Of a stretch of DNA of 64,000 nt, positions 19,101 through 64,000 are shown piece after piece. The notes beneath the pieces were generated by a model that was not told where the DNA came from, made no database searches, and was given only the letters and a program-made list of their open reading frames with translations. The stretch covers positions 5,642,001 to 5,706,000 of the forward strand of contig CM060187.1 of assembly GCA_030549335.1 (NCBI GenBank), read 5' to 3'. Position numbers and translations under genes: made by a program. The stretch comes from Pontederia crassipes. Its lineage: Eukaryota > Streptophyta > Magnoliopsida > Commelinales > Pontederiaceae. Within the stretch, counting starts at the first letter, position 1, and every line of letters starts with the position of its first letter.

Positions 19101-19267
19101 TGTTGAGATGATTGGGACGAAAAAATGGACTCGGATGAAAATTTTCCGGGGGTTCGAAATTTCGCGCGCGCGCCTTTTACTCGTGTTTTCAGCCAAGAAG
19201 GTCAAAAAATGCGAAATTTTTGACGCTGTCAAAAGATGCCAAATTTTCGACGCTATCGTGCCTGTTG

Positions 19268-33531: not shown

Positions 33532-34561
33532 ATGCATGGTGAGATGATTGGGACGAAAAAATGGACTCGGATGAAAATTTTCCGGGGGTGCAAAATTTCG
33601 CGCGCGCGCCTTTTACTCGTGTTTTCAGCCAAGAAGGTCAAAAAATGCGCAATTTTTGACGCTGTCAAAAGATGCCAAATTTTCAACGCTTTCTTGCCTA
33701 TTGATGCATGTTGAGATGATTGGGACGAAAAAATGGACTCGGATGAAAATTTTCCGGGGGTTCGAAATTTCGCGCGCGCGCCTTTTACTCGTGTTTTCAG
33801 CCAAGAAGGTCAAAAAATGCGAAATTTTTGACGCTGTCAAAAGATGCCAAATTTTCGACGCTATCGTGCCTGTTGATTCATGGAGAGATGATTGGGATGA
33901 AAAAATGGACTCGGATGAAAATTTTCCGGGGGTGCGAAATTTCGCGCGCGCGCTTTTACTCGTGTTTTCAGCCAAGAAGGTCAAAAAATGCGAAATTTTT
34001 GACGCTGTCAAAAGATGCCAAATTTTTTACGCTTTCGTGCCTATTGATGCATGGTGAGATGATTGGGACGAAAAAATGGACTCGGATGAAAATTTTATGG
34101 GGGTGCGAAATTTCGCGCGCGCGCCTTTTACTCGTGTTTTCAGCCAAGAAGGTCAAAAAACGCGAAATTTTTTACGCTGTCAAAAGATGCCAAATTTTTG
34201 ACGCTTTCTTGCCTATTGATGCATGTTGAGATGATTGGGACGAAAAAATGGACTCGGATGAAAATTTTCCGGGGGTGCGAAATTTCGCGCGCGCGCCTTT
34301 TACTCGTGTTTTCAGCCAAGAAGGTCAAAAAATGCGCAATTTTTGACGCTGTCAAAAGATGCCAAATTTTTTACGCTTTCGTGCCTATTGATGCATGGTG
34401 AGATGATTGGGACGAAAAAATGGACTCGGATGAAAATTTTCCGGGGGTGCGAATTTCGCGCGCGCGCCTTTTACTCTGGTTTTCAGCCAAGAAGGTCAAA
34501 AAATGCGAAATTTTTTACGCTGTCAAAAGATGCCAAATTTTCGACGCTTTCGTGTCTGTTG

Positions 34562-38166: not shown

Positions 38167-39221
38167 ATGCATGGTGAGATGATTGGGACGAAAAAATGGA
38201 CTCGGATGAAAATTTTCCGGGGGTGCGAAATTTCGCGCGCGCGCATTTTACTCGTGTTTTCAGCCAATAAGGTCAAAAAACGCGAAATTTTTGACGCTGT
38301 CAAAAGATGCCAAATTTTTTACGCTTTCTTGCCTATTGATGCATGTTGAGATGATTGGGACGAAAAAATGGACTCGGATGAAAATTTTCCGGGGGTGCGA
38401 AATTTCGCGCGCGCGCCTTTTACTCGTGTTTTCAGCCAAGAAGGTCAAAAAATGCGCAATTTTTGACGCTGTCAAAAGATGCCAAATTTTCGACGCTTTC
38501 GTGCCTATTGATGCATGGTGAGATGATTGGGATGAAAAAATGGACTCGGATGAAAATTTTCCGGGGGTGAGAAATTTGCGCGCGCCCCTTTTACTCGTGT
38601 TTTCAGCCAAGAAGGTCAAAAAATGCGAAATTTTTGACGCTGTCAAAAGATGCCAAATTTTCGACGCTTTCGTGTCTGTTGATGCATGGTGAGATGATTG
38701 GGACGAAAAAATGGACTCGGATGAAAATTTTTCGGGGGTGCGAAATTTCGCGCGCGCGCCTTTTACTCATGTTTTCAGCCAAGAAGGTCAAAAAACGCGA
38801 AATTTTTCACGCTATCAAAAGATGCCAAATTTTCGACGCTTTCGTGTCTGTTGATGCATGGTGAGATGATTGGGACGAAAAAATGGACTCGGATGAAAAT
38901 TTTCCGGGGGTGCAAAATTTCGCGCGCGCGCCTTTTACTCGTGTTTTCAGCCAAGAAGGTCAAAAAATGCGAAATTTTTCACGCTTTCAAAAGATGCCAA
39001 ATTTTCGACGCTATCGTGCCTGTTGATTCATGGAGAGATGATTGGGACGAAAAAATGGACTCGGATGAAAATTTTCCGGGGGTGCAAAATTTCGCGCGCG
39101 CGCCTTTTACTCGTGTTTTCAGCCAAGAAGGTCAAAAAATGCGAAATTTTTTACGCTGTCAAAAGATGCCAAATTTTTGACGCTATCGTGCCTGTTGATT
39201 CATGGAGAGAAGATTGGGATG
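38167..39221. repeat. Start of an 11-monomer unit, up to the 26-mer duplication
   Basis: Begins m1 (with gccaataagg near 38264), m2, m3, m4 (ctcatg near 38766, the last of the window), then two successive m5/m6 hybrids, the second ending in gagagaagattggg near 39204. The unit continues to 40054, but from about 39222 it is part of a larger duplicated block. Confidence 0.8.
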
Positions 39222-42200: not shown

Positions 42201-43686
42201 GTGTTTTCAGCCAAGAAGGTCAAAAAATGCAAAATTTTTGACGCTGTCAAAAGATGCCAAATTTTCGACGCTTTCTTGCCTATTGATGCATGTTGAGATG
42301 ATTGGGTCGAAAAAATGGACTCGGATGAAAATTTTCCGGGGGTGTGATATTTCGCGCGCGCGCCTTTTACTTGTGTTTTCAGCCAAGAAGGTCAAAAAAT
42401 GCGAAATTATTGGCGATGTCAAAAGATGCCAAATTTTCGATGCTTTCGTGCCTGTTGATGCATGGAGAGATGATTGGGACGAAAAAATGGACTCGGATGA
42501 AAATTTTCCGGGGGTGCGAAATTCGCGCGCGCGCCTTTTACTCTGGTTTTCAGCCAAGAAGGTCAAAAAATGCGAAATTATTGACGATGTCAAAAGATGC
42601 CAAATTTTCGATGCTTTCGTGCCTGTTGATGCATGGAGAGATGATTGGGACGAAAAAATGGACTCCGGATGAAAATTTTCCGGGGGTGCGAATTTCGGGC
42701 GCGCGCCTTTTACTCGTGTTTTCAGCCAATAAGGTCAAAAAATGCGAAATTTTTTACGCTGTCAAAAGATGCCAAATTTTCGACGCTTTCGTGTCTGTTG
42801 ATGCATGGTGAGATGATTGGGACGAAAAAATGGACTCGGATGAAAATTTTCTGGCGGTGCGAAATTTCGCGCGCGCGCATTTTACTCGTGTTTTCAGCCA
42901 AGAAGGTCAAAAAACGCGAAATTTTTGACGCTGTCAAAAGATGCCAAATTTTTTACGCTTTCTTGCCTATTGATGCATGTTGAGATGATTGGGACGAAAA
43001 AATGGACTCGGATGAAAATTTTCCGGGGGTGCGAAATTTCGCGCGCGCGCGCCTTTTACTCGTGTTTTCAGCCAAGAAGGTCAAAAAATGCGCAATTTTT
43101 GACGCTATCAAAAGATGCCAAATTTTCGACGCTTTCGTGCCTATTGATGCATGGTGAGATGATTGGGATGAAAAAATGGACTCGGATGAAAATTTTCCGG
43201 GGGTGAGAAATTTCGCGCGCGCCCCTTTTACTCGTGTTTTCAGCCAAGAAGGTCAAAAAATGCGAAATTTTTGACGCTGTCAAAAGATGCCAAATTTTCG
43301 ACGCTTTCGTGTCTGTTGATGCATGGTGAGATGATTGGGACGAAAAAATGGACTCGGATGAAAATTTTTCGGGGGTGCGAAATTTCGCGCGCGCGTCTTT
43401 TACTCGTGTTTTCAGCCAAGAAGGTCAAAAAACGCGAAATTTTTCACGCTATCAAAAGATGCCAAATTTTCGACGCTTTCGTGTCTGTTGATGCATGGTG
43501 AGATGATTGGGACGAAAAAATGGACTCGGATGAAAATTTTCCGGGGGTGCAAAATTTCGCGCGCGCGCCTTTTACTCGTGTTTTCAGCCAAGAAGGTCAA
43601 AAAATGCGCAATTTTTGACGCTGTCAAAAGATGCCAAATTTTCAACGCTTTCTTGCCTATTGATGCATGTTGAGATGATTGGGACG
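39222..43686. repeat. 26-monomer HOR, copy 1 (about 4465 bp)
   Basis: Matches 43687-48152 at an offset of 4465, stepping to 4468 and back to 4466. Shared rare marks include ccttggg (39591 and 44056), gcacgcc in the CG tract (near 39443 and 43908; again near 40817 and 45282), gccaataagg, a one-base insertion actccggatg (near 42662 and 47130), gtgtgatattt (near 42343 and 46811), ctggcggtgcg, and gacgctatc in an m2-type monomer (near 43101 and 47567). The left limit is set by ggatg against ggacg at about 39220 and 43685. Confidence 0.88.
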
Positions 43687-46600
43687 AAAAAATGGACTCG
43701 GATGAAAATTTTCCGGGGGTGCGAAATTTCGCGCGCGCGCTTTTACTCGTGTTTTCAGCCAAGAAGGTCAAAAAATGCGAAATTTTTTACGCTGTCAAAA
43801 GATGCCAAATTTTTGACGCTTTCGTGCCTATTGATGCATGGTGAGATGATTGGGACGAAAAAATGGACTCGGATGAAAATTTTATGGGGGTGCGAAATTT
43901 CGCGCGCACGCCTTTTACTCGTGTTTTCAGCCAAGAAGGTCAAAAAACGCGAAATTTTTTACGCTGTCAAAAGATGCCAAATTTTTGACGCTTTCTTGCC
44001 TATTGATGCATGTTGAGATGATTGGGACGAAAAAATGGACTCGGATGAAAATTTTCCTTGGGTGCGAAATTTCGCGCGCGCGCCTTTTACTCGTGTTTTC
44101 AGCCAAGAAGGTCAAAAAATGCGCAATTTTTGACGCTGTCAAAAGATGCCAAATTTTTTACGCTTTCGTGCCTATTGATGCATGGTGAGATGATTGGGAC
44201 GAAAAAATGGACTCGGATGAAAATTTTCCGGGGGTGCGAATTTCGCGCGCGCGCCTTTTACTCTGGTTTTCAGCCAAGAAGGTCAAAAAATGCGAAATTA
44301 TTGACGATGTCAAAAGATGCCAAATTTTCGATGCTTTCGTGCCTGTTGATGCATGGAGAGATGATTGGGACGAAAAAATGGACTCGGATGAAAATTTTCC
44401 GGGGGTGCGAATTTCGGGCGCGCGCCTTTTACTCGTGTTTTCAGCCAAGAAGGTCAAAAAATGCGAAATTTTTTACGCTGTCAAAAGATGCCAAATTTTC
44501 GACGCTTTCGTGTCTGTTGATGCATGGTGAGATGATTGGGACGAAAAAATGGACTCGGATGAAAATTTTCCGGGGGTGCGAAATTTCGCGCGCGCGCATT
44601 TTACTCGTGTTTTCAGCCAATAAGGTCAAAAAACGCGAAATTTTTGACGCTGTCAAAAGATGCCAAATTTTTTACGCTTTCTTGCCTATTGATGCATGTT
44701 GAGATGATTGGGACGAAAAAATGGACTCGGATGAAAATTTTCCGGGGGTGCGAAATTTCGCGCGCGCGCCTTTTACTCGTGTTTTCAGCCAAGAAGGTCA
44801 AAAAATGCGCAATTTTTGACGCTGTCAAAAGATGCCAAATTTTCGACGCTTTCGTGCCTATTGATGCATGGTGAGATGATTGGGATGAAAAAATGGACTC
44901 GGATGAAAATTTTCCGGGGGTGAGAAATTTCGCGCGCGCCCCTTTTACTCGTGTTTTCAGCCAAGAAGGTCAAAAAATGCGAAATTTTTGACGCTGTCAA
45001 AAGATGCCAAATTTTCGACGCTTTCGTGTCTGTTGATGCATGGTGAGATGATTGGGACGAAAAAATGGACTCGGATGAAAATTTTTCGGGGGTGCGAAAT
45101 TTCGCGCGCGCGCCTTTTACTCGTGTTTTCAGCCAAGAAGGTCAAAAAACGCGAAATTTTTCACGCTATCAAAAGATGCCAAATTTTCGACGCTTTCGTG
45201 TCTGTTGATGCATGGTGAGATGATTGGGACGAAAAAATGGACTCGGACGAAAATTTTCCGGGGGTGCAAAATTTCGCGCGCACGCCTTTTACTCGTGTTT
45301 TCAGCCAAGAAGGTCAAAAAATGCGCAATTTTTGACGCTGTCAAAAGATGCCAAATTTTCAACGCTTTCTTGCCTATTGATGCATGTTGAGATGATTGGG
45401 ACGAAAAAATGGACTCGGATGAAAATTTTCCGGGGGTTCGAAATTTCGCGCGCGCGCCTTTTACTCGTGTTTTCAGCCAAGAAGGTCAAAAAATGCGAAA
45501 TTTTTGACGCTGTCAAAAGATGCCAAATTTTCGACGCTATCGTGCCTGTTGATTCATGGAGAGATGATTGGGATGAAAAAATGGACTCGGATGAAAATTT
45601 TCCGGGGGTGCGAAATTTCGCGCGCGCGCTTTTACTCGTGTTTTCAGCCAAGAAGGTCAAAAAATGCGAAATTTTTGACGCTGTCAAAAGATGCCAAATT
45701 TTTGACGCTTTCGTGCCTATTGATGCATGGTGAGATGATTGGGACGAAAAAATGGACTCGGATGAAAATTTTATGGGGGTGCGAAATTTCGCGCGCGCGC
45801 CTTTTACTCGTGTTTTCAGCCAAGAAGGTTAAAAAACGCGAAATTTTTTACGCTGTCAAAAGATGCCAAATTTTTGACGCTTTCGTGCCTATTGATGCAT
45901 GGTGAGATGATTGGGATGAAAAAATGGACTCGGATGAAAATTTTCCGGGGGTGAGAAATTTCGCGCGCGCCCCTTTTACTCGTGTTTTCAGCCAAGAAGG
46001 TCAAAAAATGCGAAATTTTTGACGTTGTCAAAAGATGCCAAATTTTCGACGCTATCGTGCCTGTTGATTCATGGAGAGATGATTGGGATCAAAAAATGGA
46101 CTCGGATGAAAATTTTCCGGGGGTGCGAAATTTCGCGCGCGCGCTTTTACTCGTGTTTTCAGCCAAGAAGGTCAAAAAATGCGAAATTTTTGACGCTGTC
46201 AAAAGATGCCAAATTTTCGACGCTTTCGTGTCTATTGATGCAAGGTGAGATGATTGGGACGAAAAAATGGACTCGGATGAAAATTTTCCGGGGGTGCAAA
46301 ATTTCGCGCGCGCCTTTTACTCGTGTTTTCAGCCAAGAAGGTCAAAAAACGCGAAATTTTTGACGCTGTCAAAAGATGCCAAATTTTTGACGCTTTCGTG
46401 TCTGTTGATGCATGGTGAGATGATTGGGACGAAAAAATGGACTCGGATGAAAATTTTCCGGGGGTGCGAAATTTCGCGCGCGCGCGCTTTTTACTCGTGT
46501 TTTCAGCCAAGAAGGTCAAAAAACGCGAAATTTTTTACGCTGTCAAAAGATGCCAAATTTTTTACGCTTTCGTGTCTGTTGATGCATGGTGAGATGATTG

Positions 46601-48152
46601 GGACGAAAAAATGGACTCGGATGAAAATTTTCCGGGGGTGCGAAATTTCGCTGCGCGCGCTTTTACTCGTGTTTTCAGCCAAGAAGGTCAAAAAATGCAA
46701 AATTTTTGACGCTGTCAAAAGATGCCAAATTTTCGACGCTTTCTTGCCTATTGATGCATGTTGAGATGATTGGGTCGAAAAAATGGACTCGGATGAAAAT
46801 TTTCCGGGGGTGTGATATTTCGCGCGCGCGCCTTTTACTTGTGTTTTCAGCCAAGAAGGTCAAAAAATGCGAAATTATTGGCGATGTCAAAAGATGCCAA
46901 ATTTTCGATGCTTTCGTGCCTGTTGATGCATGGAGAGATGATTGGGACGAAAAAATGGACTCGGATGAAAATTTTCCGGGGGTGCGAAATTCGCGCGCGC
47001 GCCTTTTACTCTGGTTTTCAGCCAAGAAGGTCAAAAAATGCGAAATTATTGACGATGTCAAAAGATGCCAAATTTTCGATGCTTTCGTGCCTGTTGATGC
47101 ATGGAGAGATGATTGGGACGAAAAAATGGACTCCGGATGAAAATTTTCCGGGGGTGCGAATTTCGGGCGCGCGCCTTTTACTCGTGTTTTCAGCCAATAA
47201 GGTCAAAAAATGCGAAATTTTTTACGCTGTCAAAAGATGCCAAATTTTCGACGCTTTCGTGTCTGTTGATGCATGGTGAGATGATTGAGACGAAAAAATG
47301 GACTCGGATGAAAATTTTCTGGCGGTGCGAAATTTCGCGCGCGCGCATTTTACTCGTGTTTTCAGCCAAGAAGGTCAAAAAACGCGAAATTTTTGACGCT
47401 GTCAAAAGATGCCAAATTTTTTACGCTTTCTTGCCTATTGATGCATGTTGAGATGATTGGGACGAAAAAATGGACTCGGATGAAAATTTTCCGGGGGTGC
47501 GAAATTTCGCGCGCGCGCCTTTTACTCGTGTTTTCAGCCAAGAAGGTCAAAAAATGCGCAATTTTTGACGCTATCAAAAGATGCCAAATTTTCGACGCTT
47601 TCGTGCCTATTGATGCATGGTGAGATGATTGGGATGAAAAAATGGACTCGGATGAAAATTTTCCGGGGGTGAGAAATTTCGCGCGCGCCCCTTTTACTCG
47701 TGTTTTCAGCCAAGAAGGTCAAAAAATGCGAAATTTTTGACGCTGTCAAAAGATGCCAAATTTTCGACGCTTTCGTGTCTGTTGATGCATGGTGAGATGA
47801 TTGGGACGAAAAAATGGACTCGGATGAAAATTTTTCGGGGGTGCGAAATTTCGCGCGCGCGTCTTTTACTCGTGTTTTCAGCCAAGAAGGTCAAAAAACG
47901 CGAAATTTTTCACGCTATCAAAAGATGCCAAATTTTCGACGCTTTCGTGTCTGTTGATGCATGGTGAGATGATTGGGACGAAAAAATGGACTCGGATGAA
48001 AATTTTCCGGGGGTGCAAAATTTCGCGCGCGCGCCTTTTACTCGTGTTTTCAGCCAAGAAGGTCAAAAAATGCGCAATTTTTGACGCTGTCAAAAGATGC
48101 CAAATTTTCAACGCTTTCTTGCCTATTGATGCATGTTGAGATGATTGGGACG
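43687..48152. repeat. 26-monomer HOR, copy 2 (about 4466 bp)
   Basis: Second tandem copy. Differences found from copy 1 are few: aaaaaacgcg against aaaaaatgcg near 43946, ggttaaaaaacg near 45829, gattgagacg near 47285, and CG-tract length changes (two extra bases near 46480, a CTG interruption at 46651, two bases fewer near 47510). Most indels between the copies are in the CG tract. Confidence 0.88.
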
Positions 48153-50035
48153 AAAAAATGGACTCGGATGAAAATTTTCCGGGGGTGCGAAATTTCGCGC
48201 GCGCGCCTTTTACTCGTGTTTTCAGCCAAGAAGGTCAAAAAATGCGAAATTTTTGACGCTGTCAAAAGATGCCAAATTTTCGACGCTATCGTGCCTGTTG
48301 ATTCATGGAGAGATGATTGGGATGAAAAAATGGACCCGGATGAAAATTTTCCGGGGGTGCGAAATTTCGCGCGCGCGCTTTTACTCGTGTTTTCAGCCAA
48401 GAAGGTCAAAAAATGCGAAATTTTTGACGCTGTCAAAAGATGCCAGATTTTTGACGCTTTCGTGCCTATTGATGCATGGTGAGATGATTGGGACGAAAAA
48501 ATGGACTCGGATGAAAATTTTATGGGGGTGCGAAATTTCGAGCGCGCGCCTTTTACTCGTGTTTTCAGCCAAGAAGGTCAAAAAACGCGAAATTTTTTAC
48601 GCTGTCAAAAGATGCCAAATTTTTTACGCTTTCTTGCCTATTGATGCATGTTGAGATGATTGGGACGAAAAAATGGACTCGGATGAAAATTTTCCGGGGG
48701 TGCGAAATTTCGCGCGCGCGCCTTTTACTCGTGTTTTCAGCCAAGAAGGTCAAAAAATGCGCAATTTTTGACGCTGTCAAAAGATGCCAAATTTTCGACG
48801 CTTTCGTGCCTATTGATGCATGGTGAGATGATTGGGATGAAAAAATGGACTCGGATGAAAATTTTCCGGGGGTGAGAAATTTCGCGCGCGCCCCTTTTAC
48901 TCGTGTTTTCAGCCAAGAAGGTCAAAAAATGCGAAATTTTTGACGCTGTCAAAAGATGCCAAATTTTCGACGCTTTCGTGTCTGTTGATGCATGGTGAGA
49001 TGATTGGGACGAAAAAATGGACTCGGATGAAAATTTTTCGGGGGTGAGAAATTTCGCGCGCGCGCCTTTTACTCGTGTTTTCAGCCAAGAAGGTCAAAAA
49101 ACGCGAAATTTTTCACGCTATCAAAAGATGCCAAATTTTCGACGCTTTCGTGTCTGTTGATGCATGGTGAGATGATTGGGACGAAAAAATGGACTCGGAT
49201 GAAAATTTTCCGGGGGTGCAAAATTTCGCGCGCGCGCGCCTTTTACTCGTGTTTTCAGCCAAGAAGGTCAAAAAATGCGCAATTTTTTACGCTGTCAAAA
49301 GATGCCAAATTTTCAACGCTTTCTTGCCTATTGATGCATGTTGAGATGATTGGGACGAAAAAATGGACTCGGATGAAAATTTTCCGGGGGATCGAAATTT
49401 CGCGCGCGCGCCTTTTACTCGTGTTTTCAGCCAAGAAGGTCAAAAAATGCGAAATTTTTGACGCTGTCAAAAGATGCCAAATTTTCGACGCTATCGTGCC
49501 TGTTGATTCATGGAGAGATGATTGGGATGAAAAAATGGACTCGGATGAAAATTTTCCGGGGGTGCGAAATTTCGCGCGCGCGCTTTTACTCGTGTTTTCA
49601 GCCAAGAAGGTCAAAAAATGCGAAATTTTTGACGCTGTCAAAAGATGCCAAATTTTTGACGCTTTCGTGCCTATTGATGCATGGTGAGATGATTGGGACG
49701 AAAAAATGGACTCGGATGAAAATTTTATGGGGGTGCGAAATTTCGCGCGCGCGCCTTTTACTCGTGTTTTCAGCCAAGAAGGTCAAAAAACGCGAAATTT
49801 TTTACGCTGTCAAAAGATGCCAAATTTTTGACGCTTTCGTGCCTATTGATGCATGGTGAGATGATTGGGATGAAAAAATGGACTCGGATGAAAATTTTCC
49901 GGGGGTGAGAAATTTCGCGCGCGCCCCTTTTACTCGTGTTTTCAGCCAAGAAGGTCAAAAAATGCGAAATTTTTGACGCTGTCAAAAGATGCCAAATTTT
50001 CGACGCTTTCGTGTCTATTGATGCAAGGTGAGATG
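48153..50035. repeat. Transition block related to the 26-mer
   Basis: About 11 monomers. 49255-49985 matches 40836-41566 at offset 8419, and from about 50114 the match continues at offset 8250, so one monomer present near 41.5-41.7 kb is absent here. Private marks are ggacccggatg near 48333 (shared with the 21-mer units at 52971, 58120 and 61724), a G-to-A change in the CG tract (cgagcgcg near 48539) and ggggatcgaaattt near 49386. Confidence 0.78.
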
Positions 50036-53000
50036 ATTGGGACGAAAAAATGGACTCGGATGAAAATTTTCCGGGGGTGCAAAATTTCGCGCGCGCGCCT
50101 TTTACTCGTGTTTTCAGCCAAGAAGGTCAAAAAACGCGAAATTTTTGACGCTGTCAAAAGATGCCAAATTTTTGACGCTTTCGTGTTTGTTGATGCATGG
50201 TGAGATGATTGGGACGAAAAAATGGACTCGGATGAAAATTTTCCGGGGGTGCGAAATTTCGCGCGCGCGCTTTTTACTCGTGTTTTCAGCCAAGAAGGTC
50301 AAAAAACGCGAAATTTTTTACGCTGTCAAAAGATGCCAAATTTTTTACGCTTTCGTGTCTGTTGATGCATGGTGAGATGATTGGGACGAAAAAATGGACT
50401 CGGATGAAAATTTTCCGGGGGTGCGAAATTTCGCGCGCGCGCTTTTACTCGTGTTTTCAGCCAAGAAGGTCAAAAAATGCAAAATTTTTGACGCTGTCAA
50501 AAGATGCCAAATTTTCGACGCTTTCTTGCCTATTGATGCATGTTGAGATGATTGGGTCGAAAAAATGGACTCGGATGAAAATTTTCCGGGGGTGTGAAAT
50601 TTCGCGCGCGCGCCTTTTACTTGTGTTTTCAGCCAAGAAGGTCAAAAAATACGAAATTATTAGCGATGTCAAAAGATGCCAAATTTTCGATGCTTTCGTG
50701 CCTGTTGATGCATGGAGAGATGATTGGGACGAAAAAATGGACTCGGATGAAAATTTTCCGGGGGTGCGAATTTCGCGCGCGCGCCTTTTACTCTGGTTTT
50801 CAGCCAAGAAGGTCAAAAAATGCGAAATTATTGACGATGTCAAAAGATGCCAAATTTTCGATGCTTTCGTGCCTGTTGATGCATGGAGAGATGATTGGGA
50901 CGAAAAAATGGACTCGGATGAAAATTTTCCGGGGGTGCAAAATTTCGCGCGCGCGCCTTTTACTCGTGTTTTCAGCCAAGAAGGTCAAAAAACGCGAAAT
51001 TTTTGACGCTGTCAAAAGATGCCAAATTTTTGACGCTTTCGTGTCTGTTGATGCATGGTGAGATGATTGGGACGAAAAAATGGACTCGGATGAAAATTTT
51101 CCGGGGGTGCGAAATTTCGCGCGCGCGCTTTTTACTCGTGTTTTCAGCCAAGAAGGTCAAAAAACGCGAAATTTTTTACGCTGTCAAAAGATGCCAAATT
51201 TTTGACGCTTTCGTGTCTGTTGATGTATGGTGAGATGATTGGGACGAAAAAATGGACTCGGATGAAAATTTTCCGGGGGTGCGAAATTTCGCGCGCGCGC
51301 TTTTACTCGTGTTTTCAGCCAAGAAGGTCAAAAAATGCAAAATTTTTGACGCTGTCAAAAGATGCCAAATTTTCGACGCTTTCTTGCCTATTGATGCATG
51401 TTGAGATGATTGGGTCGAAAAAATGGACTCGGATGAAAATTTTCCGGGGGTGTGATATTTCGCGCGCGCGCCTTTTACTTGTGTTTTCAGCCAAGAAGGT
51501 CAAAAAATGCGAAATTATTGGCGATGTCAAAAGATGCCAAATTTTCGATGCTTTCGTGCCTGTTGATGCATGGAGAGATGATTGGGACGAAAAAATGGAC
51601 TCGGATGAAAATTTTCCGGGGGTGCGAATTTCGCGCGCGCGCCTTTTACTCTGGTTTTCAGCCAAGAAGGTCAAAAAATGCGAAATTATTGACGATGTCA
51701 AAAGATGCCAAATTTTCGATGCTTTCGTGCCTGTTGATGCATGGAGAGATGATTGGGACGAAAAAATGGACTCGGATGAAAATTTTCCGCGGGTGCGAAT
51801 TTCGGGCGCGCGCCTTTTACTCGTGTTTTCAGCCAAGAAGGTCAAAAAATGCGAAATTTTTTACGCTGTCAAAAGATGCCAAATTTTCGACGCTTTCGTG
51901 TCTGTTGATGCATGGTCAGATGATTGAGACGAAAAAATGGACTCGGATGAAAATTTTCTGGCGGTGCGAAATTTCGCGCGCGCGCATTTTACTCGTGTTT
52001 TCAGCCAAGAAGGTCAAAAAACGCGAAATTTTTGACGCTGTCAAAAGATGCCAAATTTTTTACGCTTTCTTGCCTATTGATGCATGTTGAGATGATTGGG
52101 ACGAAAAAATGGACTCGGATGAAAATTTTCCGGGGGTGCGAAATTTCGCGCGCGCGCCTTTTACTCGTGTTTTCAGCCAAGAGGTCAAAAAATGCGCAAT
52201 TTTTGACGCTGTCAAAAGATGCCAAATTTTCGACGCTTTCGTGCCTATTGATGCATGGTGAGATGATTGGGATGAAAAAATGCACTCGGATGAAAATTTT
52301 CCGGGGGTGAGAAATTTCGCGCGCGCCCCTTTTACTCGTGTTTTCAGCCAAGAAGGTCAAAAAATGCGAAATTTTTGACGCTGTCAAAAGATGCCAAATT
52401 TTCGACGCTTTCGTGTCTGTTGATGCATGGTGAGATGATTGGGACGAAAAAATGGACTCGGATGAAAATTTTTCGGGGGTGCGAAATTTCGCGCGCGCGC
52501 CTTTTACTCGTGTTTTCAGCCAAGAAGGTCAAAAAACGCGAAATTTTTCACGCTATCAAAAGATGCCAAATTTTCGACGCTTTCGTGTCTGTTGATGCAT
52601 GGTGAGATGATTGGGACGAAAAAATGGACTCGGATGAAAATTTTCCGGGGGTGCAAAATTTCGCGCGCGCGCCTTTTACTCGTGTTTTCAGCCAAGAAGG
52701 TCAAAAAATGCGCAATTTTTGACGCTGTCAAAAGATGCCAAATTTTCAACGCTTTCTTGCCTATTGATGCATGTTGAGATGATTGGGACGAAAAAATGGA
52801 CTCGGATGAAAATTTTCCGGGGGTGCGAAATTTCGCGCGCGCGCCTTTTACTCGTGTTTTCAGCCAAGAAGGTCAAAAAATGCGAAATTTTTGACGCTGT
52901 CAAAAGATGCCAAATTTTCGACGCTATCGTGCCTGTTGATTCATGGAGAGATGATTGGGATGAAAAAATGGACCCGGATGAAAATTTTCCGGGGGTGCGA

Positions 53001-54008
53001 AATTTCGCGCGCGCGCTTTTACTCGTGTTTTCAGCCAAGAAGGTCAAAAAATGCGAAATTTTTGACGCTGTCAAAAGATGCCAAATTTTCAACGCTTTCT
53101 TGCCTATTGATGCATGTTGAGATGATTGGGACGAAAAAATGGACTCGGATGAAAATTTTCCGGGGGTGCGAAATTTCGCGCGCGCGCTTTTACTCGTGTT
53201 TTCAGCCAAGAAGGTCAAAAAATGCGAAATTTTTGACGCTGTCAAAAGATGCCAAATTTTGGACGCTTTCGTGCCTATTGATGCATGGTGAGATGATTGG
53301 GACGAAAAAATGGACTCGGATGAAAATTTTATGGGGGTGCGAAATTTCGCGCGCGCGCCTTTTACTCGTGTTTTCAGCCAAGAAGGTCAAAAAACGCGAA
53401 ATTTTTCACGCTATCAAAAGATGCCAAATTTTCGACGCTTTCGTGTCTATTGATGCATGGTGAGATGATTGGGACGAAAAAATGGACTCGGATGAAAATT
53501 TTCCGGGGGTGCAAAATTTCGCGCGCGCGCCTTTTACTCGTGTTTTCAGCCAAGAAGGTCAAAAAATGCGCAATTTTTGACGCTGTCAAAAGATGCCAAA
53601 TTTTCAACGCTTTCTTGCCTATTGATGCATGTTGAGATGATTGGGACGAAAAAATGGACTCGGATGAAAATTTTCCGGGGGTGCGAAATTTCGCGCGCGC
53701 GCTTTTACTCGTGTTTTCAGCCAAGAAGGTCAAAAAATGCGAAATTTTTGACGCTGTCAAAAGATGCCAAATTTTTGACGCTTTCGTGCCTATTGATGCA
53801 TGGTGAGATGATTGGGACGAAAAAATGGACTCGGATGAAAATTTTATGGGGGTGCGAAATTTCGCGCGCGCGCCTTTTACTCGTGTTTTCAGCCAAGAAG
53901 GTCAAAAAACGCGAAATTTTTTACGCTGTCAAAAGATGCCAAATTTTTGACGCTTTCTTGCCTATTGATGCATGTTGAGATGATTGGGACGAAAAAATGG
54001 ACTCGGAT

Positions 54009-54018
54009 GAAAATTTTC
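54009..54018. other. Perfect 10-bp palindrome GAAAATTTTC
   Basis: This is monomer position 42-51 in the reference copy. The 10 bases equal their own reverse complement. The element is present in the great majority of monomers. Types with tttttcggggg or ttttatggggg at this point alter only the last base(s) and keep the AAAATTTT core. It could be a binding site for an AT-hook or minor-groove protein, or a nucleosome-positioning AT tract; no specific protein can be inferred. Confidence 0.85.
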
Positions 54019-54026
54019 CGGGGGTG

Positions 54027-54036
54027 CGAAATTTCG
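54027..54036. other. Perfect 10-bp palindrome CGAAATTTCG abutting the CG tract
   Basis: This is monomer position 60-69. It is self-complementary and runs directly into the (CG)n tract. Several monomer types break the symmetry: gtgcaaaatttcg loses the left CG, gtgcgaatttcg deletes one A, and gtgagaaattt loses the left CG. Others extend it, as in ttcgaaatttcg. Symmetry is therefore a feature of the majority type, not of every copy. Confidence 0.85.
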
Positions 54037-54044
54037 CGCGCGCG
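54035..54044. other. Alternating (CG)5 tract, Z-DNA-prone, recurring in nearly every monomer
   Basis: In the reference copy CG repeats five times, followed by CCTTTT. Similar tracts occur in nearly all monomers. Lengths range from (CG)4, for example near 41839, to (CG)6, for example near 3696, 22942, 24150, 25183, 30513, 43040, 46480 and 49229. Some copies are interrupted by CAG or CTG. Alternating C and G is the classic sequence able to adopt left-handed Z-DNA under negative supercoiling. Whether it does so here is not shown by sequence. Confidence 0.9.
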
Positions 54045-54080
54045 CCTTTTACTCGTGTTTTCAGCCAAGAAGGTCAAAAA

Positions 54081-54134
54081 ATGCGAAATTTTTGACGCTG
54101 TCAAAAGATGCCAAATTTTTGACGCTTTCGTGCC
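54081..54134 (+). repeat. Internal 27-bp direct duplication within the monomer
   Basis: Monomer segments 114-140 and 141-167 align without gaps over their first 22 bases, around the shared frame atgcnaaattttngacgct. About 19-20 of 22 bases match depending on the type, and the last five bases do not match. The same frame (tgcgaaattt) appears once more 57 bp upstream, at monomer position 58. The modern 172-bp unit may therefore have grown from a shorter ancestral repeat; that is inference. Confidence 0.7.
54090..54106. other. 17-bp dyad TTTTGAC-GCT-GTCAAAA (7-bp arms)
   Basis: This is monomer position 123-139. Arms TTTTGAC and GTCAAAA are exact reverse complements around a 3-bp centre. The dyad is intact in the common types. 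It is weakened in ttttttacgctgtc copies (one mismatch) and ttttcacgctatc copies (two mismatches), and shortened but symmetric in attattgacgatgtc copies. It could be a protein-binding dyad or a cruciform-prone site. No known box is recognised. Confidence 0.85.
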
Positions 54135-54609
54135 TATTGATGCATGTTGAGATGATTGGGATGAAAAAATGGACTCGGATGAAAATTTTCCGGGGGTGCA
54201 AAATTTCGCGCGCGCGCCTTTTACTCGTGTTTTCAACCAAGAAGGTCAAAAAACGCGAAATTTTTGACGCTGTCAAAAGATGCCAAATTTTTGACGCTTT
54301 CGTGTCTGTTGATGCATGGTGAGATGATTGGGACGAAAAAATGGACTCGGATGAAAATTTTCCGGGGGTGCGAAATTTCGCGCGCGCGCTTTTTACTCGT
54401 GTTTTCAGCCAAGAAGGTCAAAAAATGCGAAATTTTTTACGCTGTCAAAAGATGCCAAATTTTTGACGCTTTCGTGTCTGTTGATGCATGGTGAGATGAT
54501 TGGGACGAAAAAATGGACTCGGATGAAAATTTTTCGGGGGTGCGAAATTTCGCGCGCGCGCTTTTACTCGTGTTTTCAGCCAAGAAGGTCAAAAAATGCA
54601 AAATTTTTG

Positions 54610-57600
54610 ACGCTGTCAAAAGATGCCAAATTTTCAACGCTTTCTTGCCTATTGATGCATGTTGAGATGATTGGGACGAAAAAATGGACTCGGATGAAAA
54701 TTTTCCGGGGGTGCGAAATTTCGCGCGCGCGCTTTTACTCGTGTTTTCAGCCAAGAAGGTCAAAAAATGCGAAATTTTTGACGCTGTCAAAAGATGCCAA
54801 ATTTTTGACGCTTTCGTGCCTATTGATGCATGGTGAGATGATTGGGACGAAAAAATGGACTCGGATGAAAATTTTATGGGGGTGCGAAATTTCGCGCGCG
54901 CGCCTTTTACTCGTGTTTTCAGCCAAGAAGGTCAAAAAACGCGAAATTTTTTACGCTGTCAAAAGATGCCAAATTTTTGACGCTTTCTTGCCTATTGATG
55001 CATGTTGAGATGATTGGGACGAAAAAATGGACTCGGATGAAAATTTTCCGGGGGTGCGAAATTTCGCGCGCGCGCCTTTTACTCGTGTTTTCAGCCAAGA
55101 AGGTCAAAAAATGCGAAATTTTTGACGCTGTCAAAAGATGCCAAATTTTTGACGCTTTCGTGCCTATTGATGCATGTTGAGATGATTGGGACGAAAAAAT
55201 GGACTCGGATGAAAATTTTCCGGGGGTGCAAAATTTCGCGCGCGCGCCTTTTACTCGTGTTTTCAACCAAGAAGGTCAAAAAACGCGAAATTTTTGACGC
55301 TGTCAAAAGATGCCAAATTTTTGACGCTTTCGTGTCTGTTGATGCATGGTGAGATGATTGGGACGAAAAAATGGACTCGGATGAAAATTTTCCGGGGGTG
55401 CGAAATTTCGCGCGCGCGCTTTTTACTCGTGTTTTCAGCCAAGAAGGTCAAAAAATGCGAAATTTTTTACGCTGTCAAAAGATGCCAAATTTTTGACGCT
55501 TTCGTGTCTGTTGATGCATGGTGAGATGATTGGGACGAAAAAATGGACTCGGATGAAAATTTTTCGGGGGTGCGAAATTTCGCGCGCGCGCTTTTACTCG
55601 TGTTTTCAGCCAAGAAGGTCAAAAAATGCAAAATTTTTGACGCTGTCAAAAGATGCCAAATTTTCGACGCTTTCTTTCCTATTGATGCATGTTGAGATGA
55701 TTGGGTCGAAAAAATGGACTCGGATGAAAATTTTCCGGGGGTGTGAAATTTCGCGCGCGCGCCTTTTACTTGTGTTTTCAGCCAAGAAGGTCAAAAAATA
55801 CGAAATTATTGGCGATGTCAAAAGATGCCAAATTTTCGATGCTTTCGTGCCTGTTGATGCATGGAGAGATGATTGGGACGAAAAAATGGACTCGGATGAA
55901 AATTTTCCGGGGGTGCGAATTTCGCGCGCGCGCCTTTTACTCTGGTTTTCAGCCAAGAAGGTCAAAAAATGCGAAATTATTGACGATGTCAAAAGATGCC
56001 AAATTTTCGATGCTTTCGTGCCTGTTGATGCATGGAGAGATGATTGGGACGAAAAAATGGACTCGGATGAAAATTTTCCGGGGGTGCAAAATTTCGCGCG
56101 CGCGCCTTTTACTCGTGTTTTCAGCCAAGAAGGTCAAAAAACGCGAAATTTTTGACGCTGTCAAAAGATGCCAAATTTTTGACGCTTTCGTGTCTGTTGA
56201 TGCATGGTGAGATGATTGGGACGAAAAAATGGACTCGGATGAAAATTTTCCGGGGGTGCGAAATTTCGCGCGCGCGCATTTTACTCGTGTTTTCAGCCAA
56301 GAAGGTCAAAAAACGCGAAATTTTTTACGCTGTCAAAAGATGCCAAATTTTTGACGCTTTCGTGTCTGTTGATGTATGGTGAGATGATTGGGACGAAAAA
56401 ATGGACTCGGATGAAAATTTTCCGGGGGTGCGAAATTTCGCGCGCGCGCTTTTACTCGTGTTTTCAGCCAAGAAGGTCAAAAAATGCAAAATTTTTGACG
56501 CTGTCAAAAGATGCCAAATTTTCGACGCTTTCTTGCCTATTGATGCATGTTGAGATGATTGGGTCGAAAAAATGGACTCGGATGAAAATTTTCCGGGGGT
56601 GTGATATTTCGCGCGCGCGCCTTTTACTTGTGTTTTCAGCCAAGAAGGTCAAAAAATGCGAAATTATTGGCGATGTCAAAAGATGCCAAATTTTCGATGC
56701 TTTCGTGCCTGTTGATGCATGGAGAGATGATTGGGACGAAAAAATGGACTCGGATGAAAATTTTCCGGGGGTGCGAATTTCGCGCGCGCGCCTTTTACTC
56801 TGGTTTTCAGCCAAGAAGGTCAAAAAATGCGAAATTATTGACGATGTCAAAAGATGCCAAATTTTCGATGCTTTCGTGCCTGTTGATGCATGGAGAGATG
56901 ATTGGGACGAAAAAATGGACTCGGATGAAAATTTTCCGCGGGTGCGAATTTCGGGCGCGCGCCTTTTACTCGTGTTTTCAGCCAAGAAGGTCAAAAAATG
57001 CGAAATTTTTTACGCTGTCAAAAGATGCCAAATTTTCGACGCTTTCGTGTCTGTTGATGCATGGTGAGATGATTGAGACGAAAAAATGGACTCGGATGAA
57101 AATTTTCCGGCGGTGCGAAATTTCGCGCGCGCGCATTTTACTCGTGTTTTCAGCCAAGAAGGTCAAAAAACGCGAAATTTTTGACGCTGTCAAAAGATGC
57201 CAAATTTTTTACGCTTTCTTGCCTATTGATGCATGTTGAGATGATTGGGACGAAAAAATGGACTCGGATGAAAATTTTCCGGGGGTGCGAAATTTCGCGC
57301 GCGCGCCTTTTACTCGTGTTTTCAGCCAAGAGGTCAAAAAATGCGCAATTTTTGACGCTGTCAAAAGATGCCAAATTTTCGACGCTTTCGTGCCTATTGA
57401 TGCATGGTGAGATGATTGGGATGAAAAAATGCACTCGGATGAAAATTTTCCGGGGGTGAGAAATTTCGCGCGCGCCCCTTTTACTCGTGTTTTCAGCCAA
57501 GATGGTCAAAAAATGCGAAATTTTTGACGCTGTCAAAAGATGCCAAATTTTCGACGCTTTCGTGTCTGTTGATGCATGGTGAGATGATTGGGACGAAAAA

Positions 57601-58213
57601 ATGGACTCGGATGAAAATTTTTCGGGGGTGCGAAATTTCGCGCGCGCGCCTTTTACTCGTGTTTTCAGCCAAGAAGGTCAAAAAACGCGAAATTTTTCAC
57701 GCTATCAAAAGATGCCAAATTTTCGACGCTTTCGTGTCTGTTGATGCATGGTGAGATGATTGGGACGAAAAAATGGACTCGGATGAAAATTTTCCGGGGG
57801 TGCAAAATTTCGCGCGCGCGCCTTTTACTCGTGTTTTCAGCCAAGAAGGTCAAAAAATGCGCAATTTTTGACGCTGTCAAAAGATGCCAAATTTTCAACG
57901 CTTTCTTGCCTATTGATGCATGTTGAGATGATTGGGACGAAAAAATGGACTCGGATGAAAATTTTCCGGGGGTGCGAAATTTCGCGCGCGCGCCTTTTAC
58001 TCGTGTTTTCAGCCAAGAAGGTCAAAAAATGCGAAATTTTTGACGCTGTCAAAAGATGCCAAATTTTCGACGCTATCGTGCCTGTTGATTCATGGAGAGA
58101 TGATTGGGATGAAAAAATGGACCCGGATGAAAATTTTCCGGGGGTGCGAAATTTCGCGCGCGCGCTTTTACTCGTGTTTTCAGCCAAGAAGGTCAAAAAA
58201 TGCGAAATTTTTG
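54610..58213. repeat. 21-monomer HOR (3604 bp), copy 1
   Basis: Every position examined matches +3604 except isolated bases: 55668 (c, against a), 56278-56279 (gcgcatttt against gctttttac), 57503 (t, against a), and the ttttgacg/ttttggacg site near 54806 against 58410. Contains gggtcg monomers near 55705 and 56564, the one-base deletion gccaagaggtc at 57330, ggacccggatg and ttttcaacc. Its first 1030 bp are the second half of the 6-monomer duplication. Confidence 0.92.
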
Positions 58214-61200
58214 ACGCTGTCAAAAGATGCCAAATTTTCAACGCTTTCTTGCCTATTGATGCATGTTGAGATGATTGGGACGAAAAAATGGACTCGGATG
58301 AAAATTTTCCGGGGGTGCGAAATTTCGCGCGCGCGCTTTTACTCGTGTTTTCAGCCAAGAAGGTCAAAAAATGCGAAATTTTTGACGCTGTCAAAAGATG
58401 CCAAATTTTGGACGCTTTCGTGCCTATTGATGCATGGTGAGATGATTGGGACGAAAAAATGGACTCGGATGAAAATTTTATGGGGGTGCGAAATTTCGCG
58501 CGCGCGCCTTTTACTCGTGTTTTCAGCCAAGAAGGTCAAAAAACGCGAAATTTTTTACGCTGTCAAAAGATGCCAAATTTTTGACGCTTTCTTGCCTATT
58601 GATGCATGTTGAGATGATTGGGACGAAAAAATGGACTCGGATGAAAATTTTCCGGGGGTGCGAAATTTCGCGCGCGCGCCTTTTACTCGTGTTTTCAGCC
58701 AAGAAGGTCAAAAAATGCGAAATTTTTGACGCTGTCAAAAGATGCCAAATTTTTGACGCTTTCGTGCCTATTGATGCATGTTGAGATGATTGGGACGAAA
58801 AAATGGACTCGGATGAAAATTTTCCGGGGGTGCAAAATTTCGCGCGCGCGCCTTTTACTCGTGTTTTCAACCAAGAAGGTCAAAAAACGCGAAATTTTTG
58901 ACGCTGTCAAAAGATGCCAAATTTTTGACGCTTTCGTGTCTGTTGATGCATGGTGAGATGATTGGGACGAAAAAATGGACTCGGATGAAAATTTTCCGGG
59001 GGTGCGAAATTTCGCGCGCGCGCTTTTTACTCGTGTTTTCAGCCAAGAAGGTCAAAAAATGCGAAATTTTTTACGCTGTCAAAAGATGCCAAATTTTTGA
59101 CGCTTTCGTGTCTGTTGATGCATGGTGAGATGATTGGGACGAAAAAATGGACTCGGATGAAAATTTTTCGGGGGTGCGAAATTTCGCGCGCGCGCTTTTA
59201 CTCGTGTTTTCAGCCAAGAAGGTCAAAAAATGCAAAATTTTTGACGCTGTCAAAAGATGCCAAATTTTCGAAGCTTTCTTTCCTATTGATGCATGTTGAG
59301 ATGATTGGGTCGAAAAAATGGACTCGGATGAAAATTTTCCGGGGGTGTGAAATTTCGCGCGCGCGCCTTTTACTTGTGTTTTCAGCCAAGAAGGTCAAAA
59401 AATACGAAATTATTGGCGATGTCAAAAGATGCCAAATTTTCGATGCTTTCGTGCCTGTTGATGCATGGAGAGATGATTGGGACGAAAAAATGGACTCGGA
59501 TGAAAATTTTCCGGGGGTGCGAATTTCGCGCGCGCGCCTTTTACTCTGGTTTTCAGCCAAGAAGGTCAAAAAATGCGAAATTATTGACGATGTCAAAAGA
59601 TGCCAAATTTTCGATGCTTTCGTGCCTGTTGATGCATGGAGAGATGATTGGGACGAAAAAATGGACTCGGATGAAAATTTTCCGGGGGTGCAAAATTTCG
59701 CGCGCGCGCCTTTTACTCGTGTTTTCAGCCAAGAAGGTCAAAAAACGCGAAATTTTTGACGCTGTCAAAAGATGCCAAATTTTTGACGCTTTCGTGTCTG
59801 TTGATGCATGGTGAGATGATTGGGACGAAAAAATGGACTCGGATGAAAATTTTCCGGGGGTGCGAAATTTCGCGCGCGCGCTTTTTACTCGTGTTTTCAG
59901 CCAAGAAGGTCAAAAAACGCGAAATTTTTTACGCTGTCAAAAGATGCCAAATTTTTGACGCTTTCGTGTCTGTTGATGTATGGTGAGATGATTGGGACGA
60001 AAAAATGGACTCGGATGAAAATTTTCCGGGGGTGCGAAATTTCGCGCGCGCGCTTTTACTCGTGTTTTCAGCCAAGAAGGTCAAAAAATGCAAAATTTTT
60101 GACGCTGTCAAAAGATGCCAAATTTTCGACGCTTTCTTGCCTATTGATGCATGTTGAGATGATTGGGTCGAAAAAATGGACTCGGATGAAAATTTTCCGG
60201 GGGTGTGATATTTCGCGCGCGCGCCTTTTACTTGTGTTTTCAGCCAAGAAGGTCAAAAAATGCGAAATTATTGGCGATGTCAAAAGATGCCAAATTTTCG
60301 ATGCTTTCGTGCCTGTTGATGCATGGAGAGATGATTGGGACGAAAAAATGGACTCGGATGAAAATTTTCCGGGGGTGCGAATTTCGCGCGCGCGCCTTTT
60401 ACTCTGGTTTTCAGCCAAGAAGGTCAAAAAATGCGAAATTATTGACGATGTCAAAAGATGCCAAATTTTCGATGCTTTCGTGCCTGTTGATGCATGGAGA
60501 GATGATTGGGACGAAAAAATGGACTCGGATGAAAATTTTCCGCGGGTGCGAATTTCGGGCGCGCGCCTTTTACTCGTGTTTTCAGCCAAGAAGGTCAAAA
60601 AATGCGAAATTTTTTACGCTGTCAAAAGATGCCAAATTTTCGACGCTTTCGTGTCTGTTGATGCATGGTGAGATGATTGAGACGAAAAAATGGACTCGGA
60701 TGAAAATTTTCCGGCGGTGCGAAATTTCGCGCGCGCGCATTTTACTCGTGTTTTCAGCCAAGAAGGTCAAAAAACGCGAAATTTTTGACGCTGTCAAAAG
60801 ATGCCAAATTTTTTACGCTTTCTTGCCTATTGATGCATGTTGAGATGATTGGGACGAAAAAATGGACTCGGATGAAAATTTTCCGGGGGTGCGAAATTTC
60901 GCGCGCGCGCCTTTTACTCGTGTTTTCAGCCAAGAGGTCAAAAAATGCGCAATTTTTGACGCTGTCAAAAGATGCCAAATTTTCGACGCTTTCGTGCCTA
61001 TTGATGCATGGTGAGATGATTGGGATGAAAAAATGCACTCGGATGAAAATTTTCCGGGGGTGAGAAATTTCGCGCGCGCCCCTTTTACTCGTGTTTTCAG
61101 CCAAGAAGGTCAAAAAATGCGAAATTTTTGACGCTGTCAAAAGATGCCAAATTTTCGACGCTTTCGTGTCTGTTGATGCATGGTGAGATGATTGGGACGA

Positions 61201-61817
61201 AAAAATGGACTCGGATGAAAATTTTTCGGGGGTGCGAAATTTCGCGCGCGCGCCTTTTACTCGTGTTTTCAGCCAAGAAGGTCAAAAAACGCGAAATTTT
61301 TCACGCTATCAAAAGATGCCAAATTTTCGACGCTTTCGTGTCTGTTGATGCATGGTGAGATGATTGGGACGAAAAAATGGACTCGGATGAAAATTTTCCG
61401 GGGGTGCAAAATTTCGCGCGCGCGCCTTTTACTCGTGTTTTCAGCCAAGAAGGTCAAAAAATGCGCAATTTTTGACGCTGTCAAAAGATGCCAAATTTTC
61501 AACGCTTTCTTGCCTATTGATGCATGTTGAGATGATTGGGACGAAAAAATGGACTCGGATGAAAATTTTCCGGGGGTGCGAAATTTCGCGCGCGCGCCTT
61601 TTACTCGTGTTTTCAGCCAAGAAGGTCAAAAAATGCGAAATTTTTGACGCTGTCAAAAGATGCCAAATTTTCGACGCTATCGTGCCTGTTGATTCATGGA
61701 GAGATGATTGGGATGAAAAAATGGACCCGGATGAAAATTTTCCGGGGGTGCGAAATTTCGCGCGCGCGCTTTTACTCGTGTTTTCAGCCAAGAAGGTCAA
61801 AAAATGCGAAATTTTTG
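58214..61817. repeat. 21-monomer HOR (3604 bp), copy 2
   Basis: Exact-length repeat of 54610-58213 in the same phase. Site 59272 is a where copy 1 has c and copy 3 has t. Marks recur at +3604: gggtcg near 59309 and 60168, and gccaagaggtc near 60934. Apart from the single-base sites named here and in the neighbouring entries, I found no difference. Confidence 0.93.
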
Positions 61818-64000
61818 ACGCTGTCAAAAGATGCCAAATTTTCAACGCTTTCTTGCCTATTGATGCATGTTGAGATGATTGGGACGAAAAAATGGACTCG
61901 GATGAAAATTTTCCGGGGGTGCGAAATTTCGCGCGCGCGCTTTTACTCGTGTTTTCAGCCAAGAAGGTCAAAAAATGCGAAATTTTTGACGCTGTCAAAA
62001 GATGCCAAATTTTGGACGCTTTCGTGCCTATTGATGCATGGTGAGATGATTGGGACGAAAAAATGGACTCGGATGAAAATTTTATGGGGGTGCGAAATTT
62101 CGCGCGCGCGCCTTTTACTCGTGTTTTCAGCCAAGAAGGTCAAAAAACGCGAAATTTTTTACGCTGTCAAAAGATGCCAAATTTTTGACGCTTTCTTGCC
62201 TATTGATGCATGTTGAGATGATTGGGACGAAAAAATGGACTCGGATGAAAATTTTCCGGGGGTGCGAAATTTCGCGCGCGCGCCTTTTACTCGTGTTTTC
62301 AGCCAAGAAGGTCAAAAAATGCGAAATTTTTGACGCTGTCAAAAGATGCCAAATTTTTGACGCTTTCGTGCCTATTGATGCATGTTGAGATGATTGGGAC
62401 GAAAAAATGGACTCGGATGAAAATTTTCCGGGGGTGCAAAATTTCGCGCGCGCCCCTTTTACTCGTGTTTTCAACCAAGAAGGTCAAAAAACGCGAAATT
62501 TTTGACGCTGTCAAAAGATGCCAAATTTTTGACGCTTTCGTGTCTGTTGATGCATGGTGAGATGATTGGGACGAAAAAATGGACTCGGATGAAAATTTTC
62601 CGGGGGTGCGAAATTTCGCGCGCGCGCTTTTTACTCGTGTTTTCAGCCAAGAAGGTCAAAAAATGCGAAATTTTTTACGCTGTCAAAAGATGCCAAATTT
62701 TTGACGCTTTCGTGTCTGTTGATGCATGGTGAGATGATTGGGACGAAAAAATGGACTCGGATGAAAATTTTTCGGGGGTGCGAAATTTCGCGCGCGCGCT
62801 TTTACTCGTGTTTTCAGCCAAGAAGGTCAAAAAATGCAAAATTTTTGACGCTGTCAAAAGATGCCAAATTTTCGATGCTTTCTTTCCTATTGATGCATGT
62901 TGAGATGATTGGGTCGAAAAAATGGACTCGGATGAAAATTTTCCGGGGGTGTGAAATTTCGCGCGCGCGCCTTTTACTTGTGTTTTCAGCCAAGAAGGTC
63001 AAAAAATACGAAATTATTGGCGATGTCAAAAGATGCCAAATTTTCGATGCTTTCGTGCCTGTTGATGCATGGAGAGATGATTGGGACGAAAAAATGGACT
63101 CGGATGAAAATTTTCCGGGGGTGCGAATTTCGCGCGCGCGCCTTTTACTCTGGTTTTCAGCCAAGAAGGTCAAAAAATGCGAAATTATTGACGATGTCAA
63201 AAGATGCCAAATTTTCGATGCTTTCGTGCCTGTTGATGCATGGAGAGATGATTGGGACGAAAAAATGGACTCGGATGAAAATTTTCCGGGGGTGCAAAAT
63301 TTCGCGCGCGCGCCTTTTACTCGTGTTTTCAGCCAAGAAGGTCAAAAAACGCGAAATTTTTGACGCTGTCAAAAGATGCCAAATTTTTGACGCTTTCGTG
63401 TCTGTTGATGCATGGTGAGATGATTGGGACGAAAAAATGGACTCGGATGAAAATTTTCCGGGGGTGCGAAATTTCGCGCGCGCGCTTTTTACTCGTGTTT
63501 TCAGCCAAGAAGGTCAAAAAACGCGAAATTTTTTACGCTGTCAAAAGATGCCAAATTTTTGACGCTTTCGTGTCTGTTGATGTATGGTGAGATGATTGGG
63601 ACGAAAAAATGGACTCGGATGAAAATTTTCCGGGGGTGCGAAATTTCGCGCGCGCGCTTTTACTCGTGTTTTCAGCCAAGAAGGTCAAAAAATGCAAAAT
63701 TTTTGACGCTGTCAAAAGATGCCAAATTTTCGACGCTTTCTTGCCTATTGATGCATGTTGAGATGATTGGGTCGAAAAAATGGACTCGGATGAAAATTTT
63801 CCGGGGGTGTGATATTTCGCGCGCGCGCCTTTTACTTGTGTTTTCAGCCAAGAAGGTCAAAAAATGCGAAATTATTGGCGATGTCAAAAGATGCCAAATT
63901 TTCGATGCTTTCGTGCCTGTTGATGCATGGAGAGATGATTGGGACGAAAAAATGGACTCGGATGAAAATTTTCCGGGGGTGCGAATTTCGCGCGCGCGCC
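61818..64000. repeat. 21-monomer HOR, copy 3, cut by the window end
   Basis: The first 2183 bp of a third copy. Differences found from copy 2 are 62454 (c, against g at 58850, in the CG tract) and 62876 (t, against a at 59272). The array clearly continues beyond base 64000. Confidence 0.92.

Follow-up and report, generated by a model that had tools for sequence, protein, structure and literature searches.

A 21-monomer, 3,604-bp tandem unit and other block duplications in a 172-bp satellite array

HORs outside primates have been documented in several systems (PMC10199239, PMC12046899, PMC3694981, PMC12371157; here and below, statements on published arrays follow excerpts of the papers cited). 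For Arabidopsis, HORs are said to comprise "mostly 2 or 3 monomers" (PMC12321929), and a 34-mer HOR, longer than the 21-mer described here, is reported from the human Y chromosome in the excerpt of PMC8997354, in which the monomers within a unit of human alpha satellite are given as 50-70% alike. According to PMC12046899, non-centromeric arrays of Populus and Salix also form HORs, so that HORs are no proof of a centromere. Models of unequal exchange and of break-induced replication (BIR) have both been described for satellite arrays (PMC8997354, in part), and BIR is favoured in the relevant passage of a 2025 review (PMC12321929).

The stretch of DNA analysed here (64,000 bp, hereinafter the window) is occupied by a 172-bp satellite. 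The first-pass annotation had considered HORs of this length outside primates worth documenting; HORs outside primates in general are already well published, although a 21-mer is long compared with those of Arabidopsis.

The satellite array and its 3,604-bp unit

Monomers were delimited by matches to an anchor (at most 3 mismatches), with two 343-bp gaps divided by a script. They run from position 48 to the last anchor near 63,952 without a break, and no opposite-strand anchors were found in the window. With 372 monomers of one kind following each other head to tail, the array is tandem satellite DNA. The first 47 bases, which precede the first anchor, and the incomplete monomer at the end enter base-level counts but not monomer counts. 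The mean pairwise identity of monomers was 94.5% (background divergence, 5.5%), and the 372 monomers comprised 166 distinct sequences, which were grouped into 56 classes. GC content was even at 43-44% (2-kb steps), and CpG was present at 1.7 times the expected level. The longest CG run was (CG)5 in 308 of the monomers; this alternating CG tract was almost free of transitions, and other CpG sites varied much. Between 50,001 and 64,000, two adjoining similar 27-bp stretches were present in most monomers (66 rows of the period for about 82 monomers). No single period dominated the window, and none held left of 54,600.

Among offsets of 1-5,999, the top self-match of positions 54,000-64,000 was found at 3604 (identity 0.9945, versus 0.742 for the next offset). 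Comparison of 54,601-60,396 with 58,205-64,000 yielded 6 mismatches in 5,796 bases and 0 gaps, which corresponds to 99.90% identity and a divergence of 0.104% (95% interval, 0.038-0.225%). The substitutions were located at 54806, 55668, 56278, 57503, 58850, and 59272. An offset of 3604 holding without indels from about 54,610 to the window end over 2.6 copies, as previously annotated, was thus borne out, the number of unit copies being (64000-54600)/3604 = 2.61. The phase of the unit was taken from the point where the clean periodicity starts on the left, beyond which mismatches at this offset were frequent (54600, 54534, 54519, 54506); on the right, the window truncates the periodicity. Likewise, the count of 21 monomers per 3604 bp agreed with our cut, in which the monomers measured 171-172 bp, with lengths that were equal in copies 1 and 2 and totalled 3,604 bp in each. 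At a lag of 21 monomers, 34 consecutive monomer pairs were near-identical, with no more than 3 differences in any pair, whereas the longest runs in 50 shuffles of monomer order reached 3-5. This run begins at the monomer at 54,513, slightly left of the clean edge, with 3 extra substitutions there. The annotated start near 54,610 was correct as the start of the regular part, but a related, irregular stretch of equal monomer order starts about 4.5 kb earlier (copy 0 in Table 1).

Table 1. Satellite array, copies of the 3,604-bp unit, and block pairs in the window
Feature	Position	Strand	Offset (bp)	Details
Uninterrupted head-to-tail 172-bp satellite, one orientation	1..64000	.		372 monomers of 170-174 bp
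Copy 0, same order as unit	50050..53310	.		19 monomers; 11 substitutions, 0 gaps in 3,260 bp
Copy 1 of 3,604-bp unit	54601..58204	.		21 monomers; 4 substitutions, 0 indels vs copy 2
Copy 2 of 3,604-bp unit	58205..61808	.		2 substitutions, 0 indels vs windowed part of copy 3
Copy 3 of 3,604-bp unit, partial	61809..64000	.		2,192 of 3,604 bp; cut by window end
ILMNJ twice in tandem inside unit	55199..56914	.	858	Monomer classes; also doubled in copies 0 and 2
Six-monomer (6-mer) tandem duplication of first part of copy 1	53572..54635	.	1030	1 substitution in 1,064 bp; 0 gap events
21-mer pair			3604	6 substitutions in 5,796 bp; 0 gap events
30-monomer offset, not adjacent			5149	11 substitutions in 3,260 bp (0.34%, 0.17-0.60%); 0 gap events
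26-mer tandem duplication, comparison block outside unit	39227..48157	.	4465	3 substitutions in 4,463 bp; 3 gap events
9-mer			1546	6 substitutions in 3,605 bp; 3 gap events
10-mer			1718	9 substitutions in 2,920 bp; 5 gap events
10-mer, second			1719	4 substitutions in 1,719 bp; 0 gap events
11-mer			1888	2 substitutions in 1,716 bp; 1 gap event
11-mer offset, second			1888	3 substitutions in 1,544 bp; 1 gap event

From the monomer starting at 54,513, the unit reads XDHYILMNJILMNJOGFEBAC in monomer classes, an order shared by copy 1, copy 2, and as much of copy 3 as the window shows. The unit is composite, consisting of a doubled 5-mer (ILMNJ) and a cassette that is found elsewhere in the window (GFEBAC). 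GFEBAC occurred 10 times from 18,266 on and was missing from the first 18 kb. ILMNJ occurred 8 times, once at 41,802 and otherwise from 50,050 on, there in pairs where the window does not cut them; the offset of this doubling ranked within the top ten self-matches of 54,000-64,000. In copy 0, the order ILMNJILMNJOGFEBACXD is followed by extra monomers, including the six-monomer tandem duplication. Copy 0 sits 5,149 bp (30 monomers) before its counterparts in copy 1, a spacing of 9 monomers more than one unit. SacII, an enzyme blocked by CpG methylation, has a single site in each unit (near 51791, 56940, and 60544, corresponding to fragments of 5,149 and 3,604 bp) and none in the first 50 kb; AvaII sites lie near 52971, 58120, and 61724, with one more in the first 50 kb. 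The partner of the six-monomer duplication (start, 54,602) and the clean 3604 periodicity start within one base of each other, and therefore the sharp left edge of this periodicity goes with the nested event.

As for the term HOR, the TRASH definition asks for three or more monomer pairs in a row with no more than 5 differences, and such arrangements were found with our own script at a stricter limit of 3 differences. Measured against the classical alphoid HOR, in which near-identical units of strongly diverged monomers form a regular array, units were 99.9% alike and monomers within the unit 94.4% alike, with 2.6 regular units visible. The previously assigned label is accordingly apt for a near-identical tandem unit of 21 monomers, but its classical sense fits loosely, given such similar monomers and the lack of a dominant period.

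Block duplications in the window and their relative age

Of the 372 monomers, 313 belonged to repeated runs five or more monomers long in which no pair showed more than 3 differences, compared with 0-10 in 50 shuffles. For runs of at least 3, the number was 346; because shuffles placed 23-86 monomers in such runs, runs of 3 alone are no proof. The window contained 165 runs of at least 5 monomers, 70 of which were listed. Gapped comparison was performed for eight chosen pairs and for the 1,030 pair (Table 1). These nine block pairs, 6 to 30 monomers apart, differed by 0.07-0.34% substitutions versus the 5.5% background. One and two monomers lie between the blocks of the two 1888 pairs; the other pairs are tandem except the 5149 pair. 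Divergence of the 26-mer pair was 0.067% (0.014-0.196%), and since this interval overlaps that of the 3604 pair, the two cannot be ranked by divergence. The 3604 pair forms the longest run and has one of the lowest divergences, yet it is no outlier; its block appears to represent one of several recent duplications of this kind in the array.

The first-pass annotation had also proposed very recent amplification, pointing to the constancy of units with slippage-prone CG tracts. The low divergence fits this proposal, but CG-tract constancy is a poor clock. CG tracts do slip in this array, and most of the gap events listed fall in the CG tract. Gaps, however, do not track divergence: none was present in the 5149 pair at 0.34%, and three were present in the 26-mer pair at 0.067%. 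For scale only, 0.10% divergence would correspond to about 50,000 generations if 1e-8 changes per site and generation are assumed.

Five sites were variable in the unit, at four of which copy 0 gives a comparison state. Copy 1 departs from copy 0 at 56278 and 57503, and copy 3 departs at 55246. The site at 55668/59272/62876 has three states, with C, C, A, and T in copies 0-3, respectively. This pattern fits changes after duplication. The doubling of the 5-mer probably preceded the copying of the 21-mer, since it is present in copies 0, 1, and 2. The 3604 copies are probably younger than the 5149 pair, although their intervals overlap slightly.

Recombination and alternative explanations

It is likely that the locus belongs to an extended 172-bp satellite array in which displaced in-register recombination took place repeatedly, and that a composite 21-mer was recently copied in tandem at least two more times. 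Blocks would have been duplicated again and again by homologous, in-register, displaced recombination between neighbouring repeats, with unequal sister exchange or BIR as the putative route. The composite block of 21 monomers (the GFEBAC cassette plus the doubled ILMNJ) would recently have been copied in tandem at least twice more, after which each copy would have acquired a few point changes. The periods, the nested composition, the near-identity of blocks, and the monomer phase kept throughout are direct observations, whereas we infer the recombination mechanism, its recency and the order of events, as well as the chromosomal place and role of the array, which probably belongs to plant or animal heterochromatin at or near a centromere. 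Block junctions keep the monomer phase, as homologous exchange would, because all 372 monomers measure 170-174 bp; this kept phase, the varying block sizes, and the nested local duplications fit displaced homologous recombination. The outcomes of BIR and unequal exchange are indistinguishable in this sequence. Gene conversion could also have lowered divergence.

The single-strand DNA fold of one monomer was no better than shuffles (z -0.27), and on this one test non-B structure as a trigger is unsupported; a hairpin-forming monomer was rejected as a trigger on the same result. Two small inverted repeats were present in the folded monomer.

The all-transversion spectrum is not predicted by recombination. 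All six differences of the 3604 pair are transversions, compared with 26 transitions and 31 transversions in ten block pairs together, a tally that includes lag-16 and lag-25 pairs from outside the gapped comparison. Six transversions are too few to separate chance, exchange with other monomers, and error. Errors could have produced such a spectrum if the tandem copies were not real, two haplotypes or an unresolved repeat graph having led the assembler to repeat a block. Near-identical long repeats can mislead long-read assembly, and 99.90% identity without an indel over 5,796 bp marks the kind of repeat that is prone to it. On the other hand, the window contains many duplications of other sizes, so that block duplication is the usual pattern of this array; in addition, the differences fall in all three copies, next to which lies a more diverged stretch of equal order. 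An assembly artefact is therefore improbable. Exchange with other monomer types might be reflected in the three-state site C/A/T, and the 2025 review reports gene conversion in Arabidopsis centromeres over tracts of about 125 bp (PMC12321929). That conversion rather than fresh duplication keeps old copies alike is nevertheless improbable, as such short tracts would have to act evenly over an order of 21 monomers without mixing, and the class order is unchanged among copies.

There is a modest chance that the window catches the start of a long regular array of 3,604-bp HORs extending far past its end, like the cores of active human centromeres. The periodicity is still exact where the window end cuts copy 3; against this, just 2.6 regular copies are visible, no single period is found left of 54,600, and the compared block pairs are local. 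Displaced recombination with recent tandem copying is the preferred reading.

Other origins were rejected. A 19-base monomer pattern had no match in viral contigs, and the 3,604-bp unit had none in plasmids and phages. In prokaryote genome contigs (257 billion bases), the 19-base pattern gave 2 matches versus about 2 expected by chance; the first corresponded to a repeated 22-bp match in the output listed, and both were taken as chance. The unit had no Rfam match at the gathering score, which argues against a known structured RNA. A coding function was set aside, since the longest stop-free stretches (274-277 codons on the plus strand and 232 on the minus strand) each repeat one monomer. Twelve stretches of the satellite had no match in the literature text searched.

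Comparison with known satellite systems

No match to the CENP-B box core with 0-1 mismatch was found on either strand of the window. With 2 mismatches, 168 matches were found on the plus strand and 1 on the minus strand, and with 3 mismatches 679 and 702, respectively, as counts without a shuffle control. The CpG level (1.7 times expected) and the missing CENP-B core argue against great-ape B-type alpha satellite, and against that type only; the placement outside primates in the first-pass annotation is an assumption.

It is doubtful, though conceivable, that a long composite 21-mer HOR (3.6 kb) is taking over a non-primate 172-bp satellite at an early stage of expansion, with likely predecessors (copy 0 and the 6-mer and 5-mer duplications) adjoining; the CG tract could then mark a maintained structural or protein-binding element. 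If reads confirm the assembly, apparent stages of HOR birth (cassette, 5-mer doubling, 6-mer doubling, 21-mer copying) would lie within about 14 kb. The locus would then be of use as a local example in modelling satellite expansion, without altering existing knowledge of such models.

Among described systems, each compared by the description in the cited excerpts, Meloidogyne shares with this locus HORs outside primates (reported in 2013) and monomers of about 170 bp, but its HORs combine highly dissimilar monomers, with identities as low as 32%, whereas one close family is present here (PMC3694981). The arrays of Populus and Salix (centromeric Palv156 and non-centromeric Palv148) are likewise plant satellites with TRASH-called HOR blocks; their monomer names imply 145-156 bp (PMC12046899). 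Human alpha satellite resembles the present array in monomer length (about 171 versus 172 bp) and in nested, near-identical multi-monomer units (PMC8997354), and differs in that monomers here are 94.4% alike and no regular period extends across the window. Arabidopsis CEN178 (CEN180) shares nucleosome-length monomers and very many multi-monomer duplications with this array (PMC10199239, PMC12321929), although the blocks, mostly of 2 or 3 monomers there, reach 21-26 monomers here.

Base variation inside and outside the CG tract

Across the 372 monomers, CpG positions within the CG tract were almost invariant, with six transitions, at 3 of the 10 positions; transversions at tract CpG positions numbered 40, at five positions. 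In contrast, according to raw counts made without correction for the shared descent of the monomers or for gap placement, CpG positions outside the tract were above average in variation: 20 such positions carried 690 non-consensus bases, of which 468 were transitions, spread over 17 positions. Non-CpG C/G positions varied less (852 non-consensus bases at 48 positions). The low variation of the tract, likewise uncorrected for descent and gap placement, may hint at deamination protection or selection in the CG tract.

In addition, most monomers of positions 50,001-64,000 contained two neighboring 27-bp stretches (81-92% alike), which look like an older duplication within the monomer. Folding of one monomer placed a small inverted repeat in each stretch.

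Features of the array and their coordinates
Feature	Position	Description
CG tract	1-64000 (example, 55065-55074)	one per monomer
Paired 27-bp stretches	55103-55156 (example)	
10-monomer block	6583-8301	offset 1,719
26-monomer tandem block	39227-48157	26 monomers, 4,465 bp, two copies

Substitutions between block copies

All six substitutions among the copies of the 21-monomer, 3,604-bp unit (54601-64000) were transversions, in contrast to the 26-monomer block, a second long block in tandem, whose copies differed by three substitutions, all of them transitions, and three gap events. One site of the 3,604-bp unit showed three states in consecutive copies (C at 55668, A at 59272, and T at 62876), and its counterpart in copy 0, the more diverged stretch left of copy 1, was C.

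Array character along the window

The GFEBAC cassette, a six-monomer part of the 3,604-bp unit, was absent from positions 1-18000 and occurred farther right, and blocks peculiar to the first 18 kb, such as the 10-monomer block, were found. Array character thus shifts along the window.
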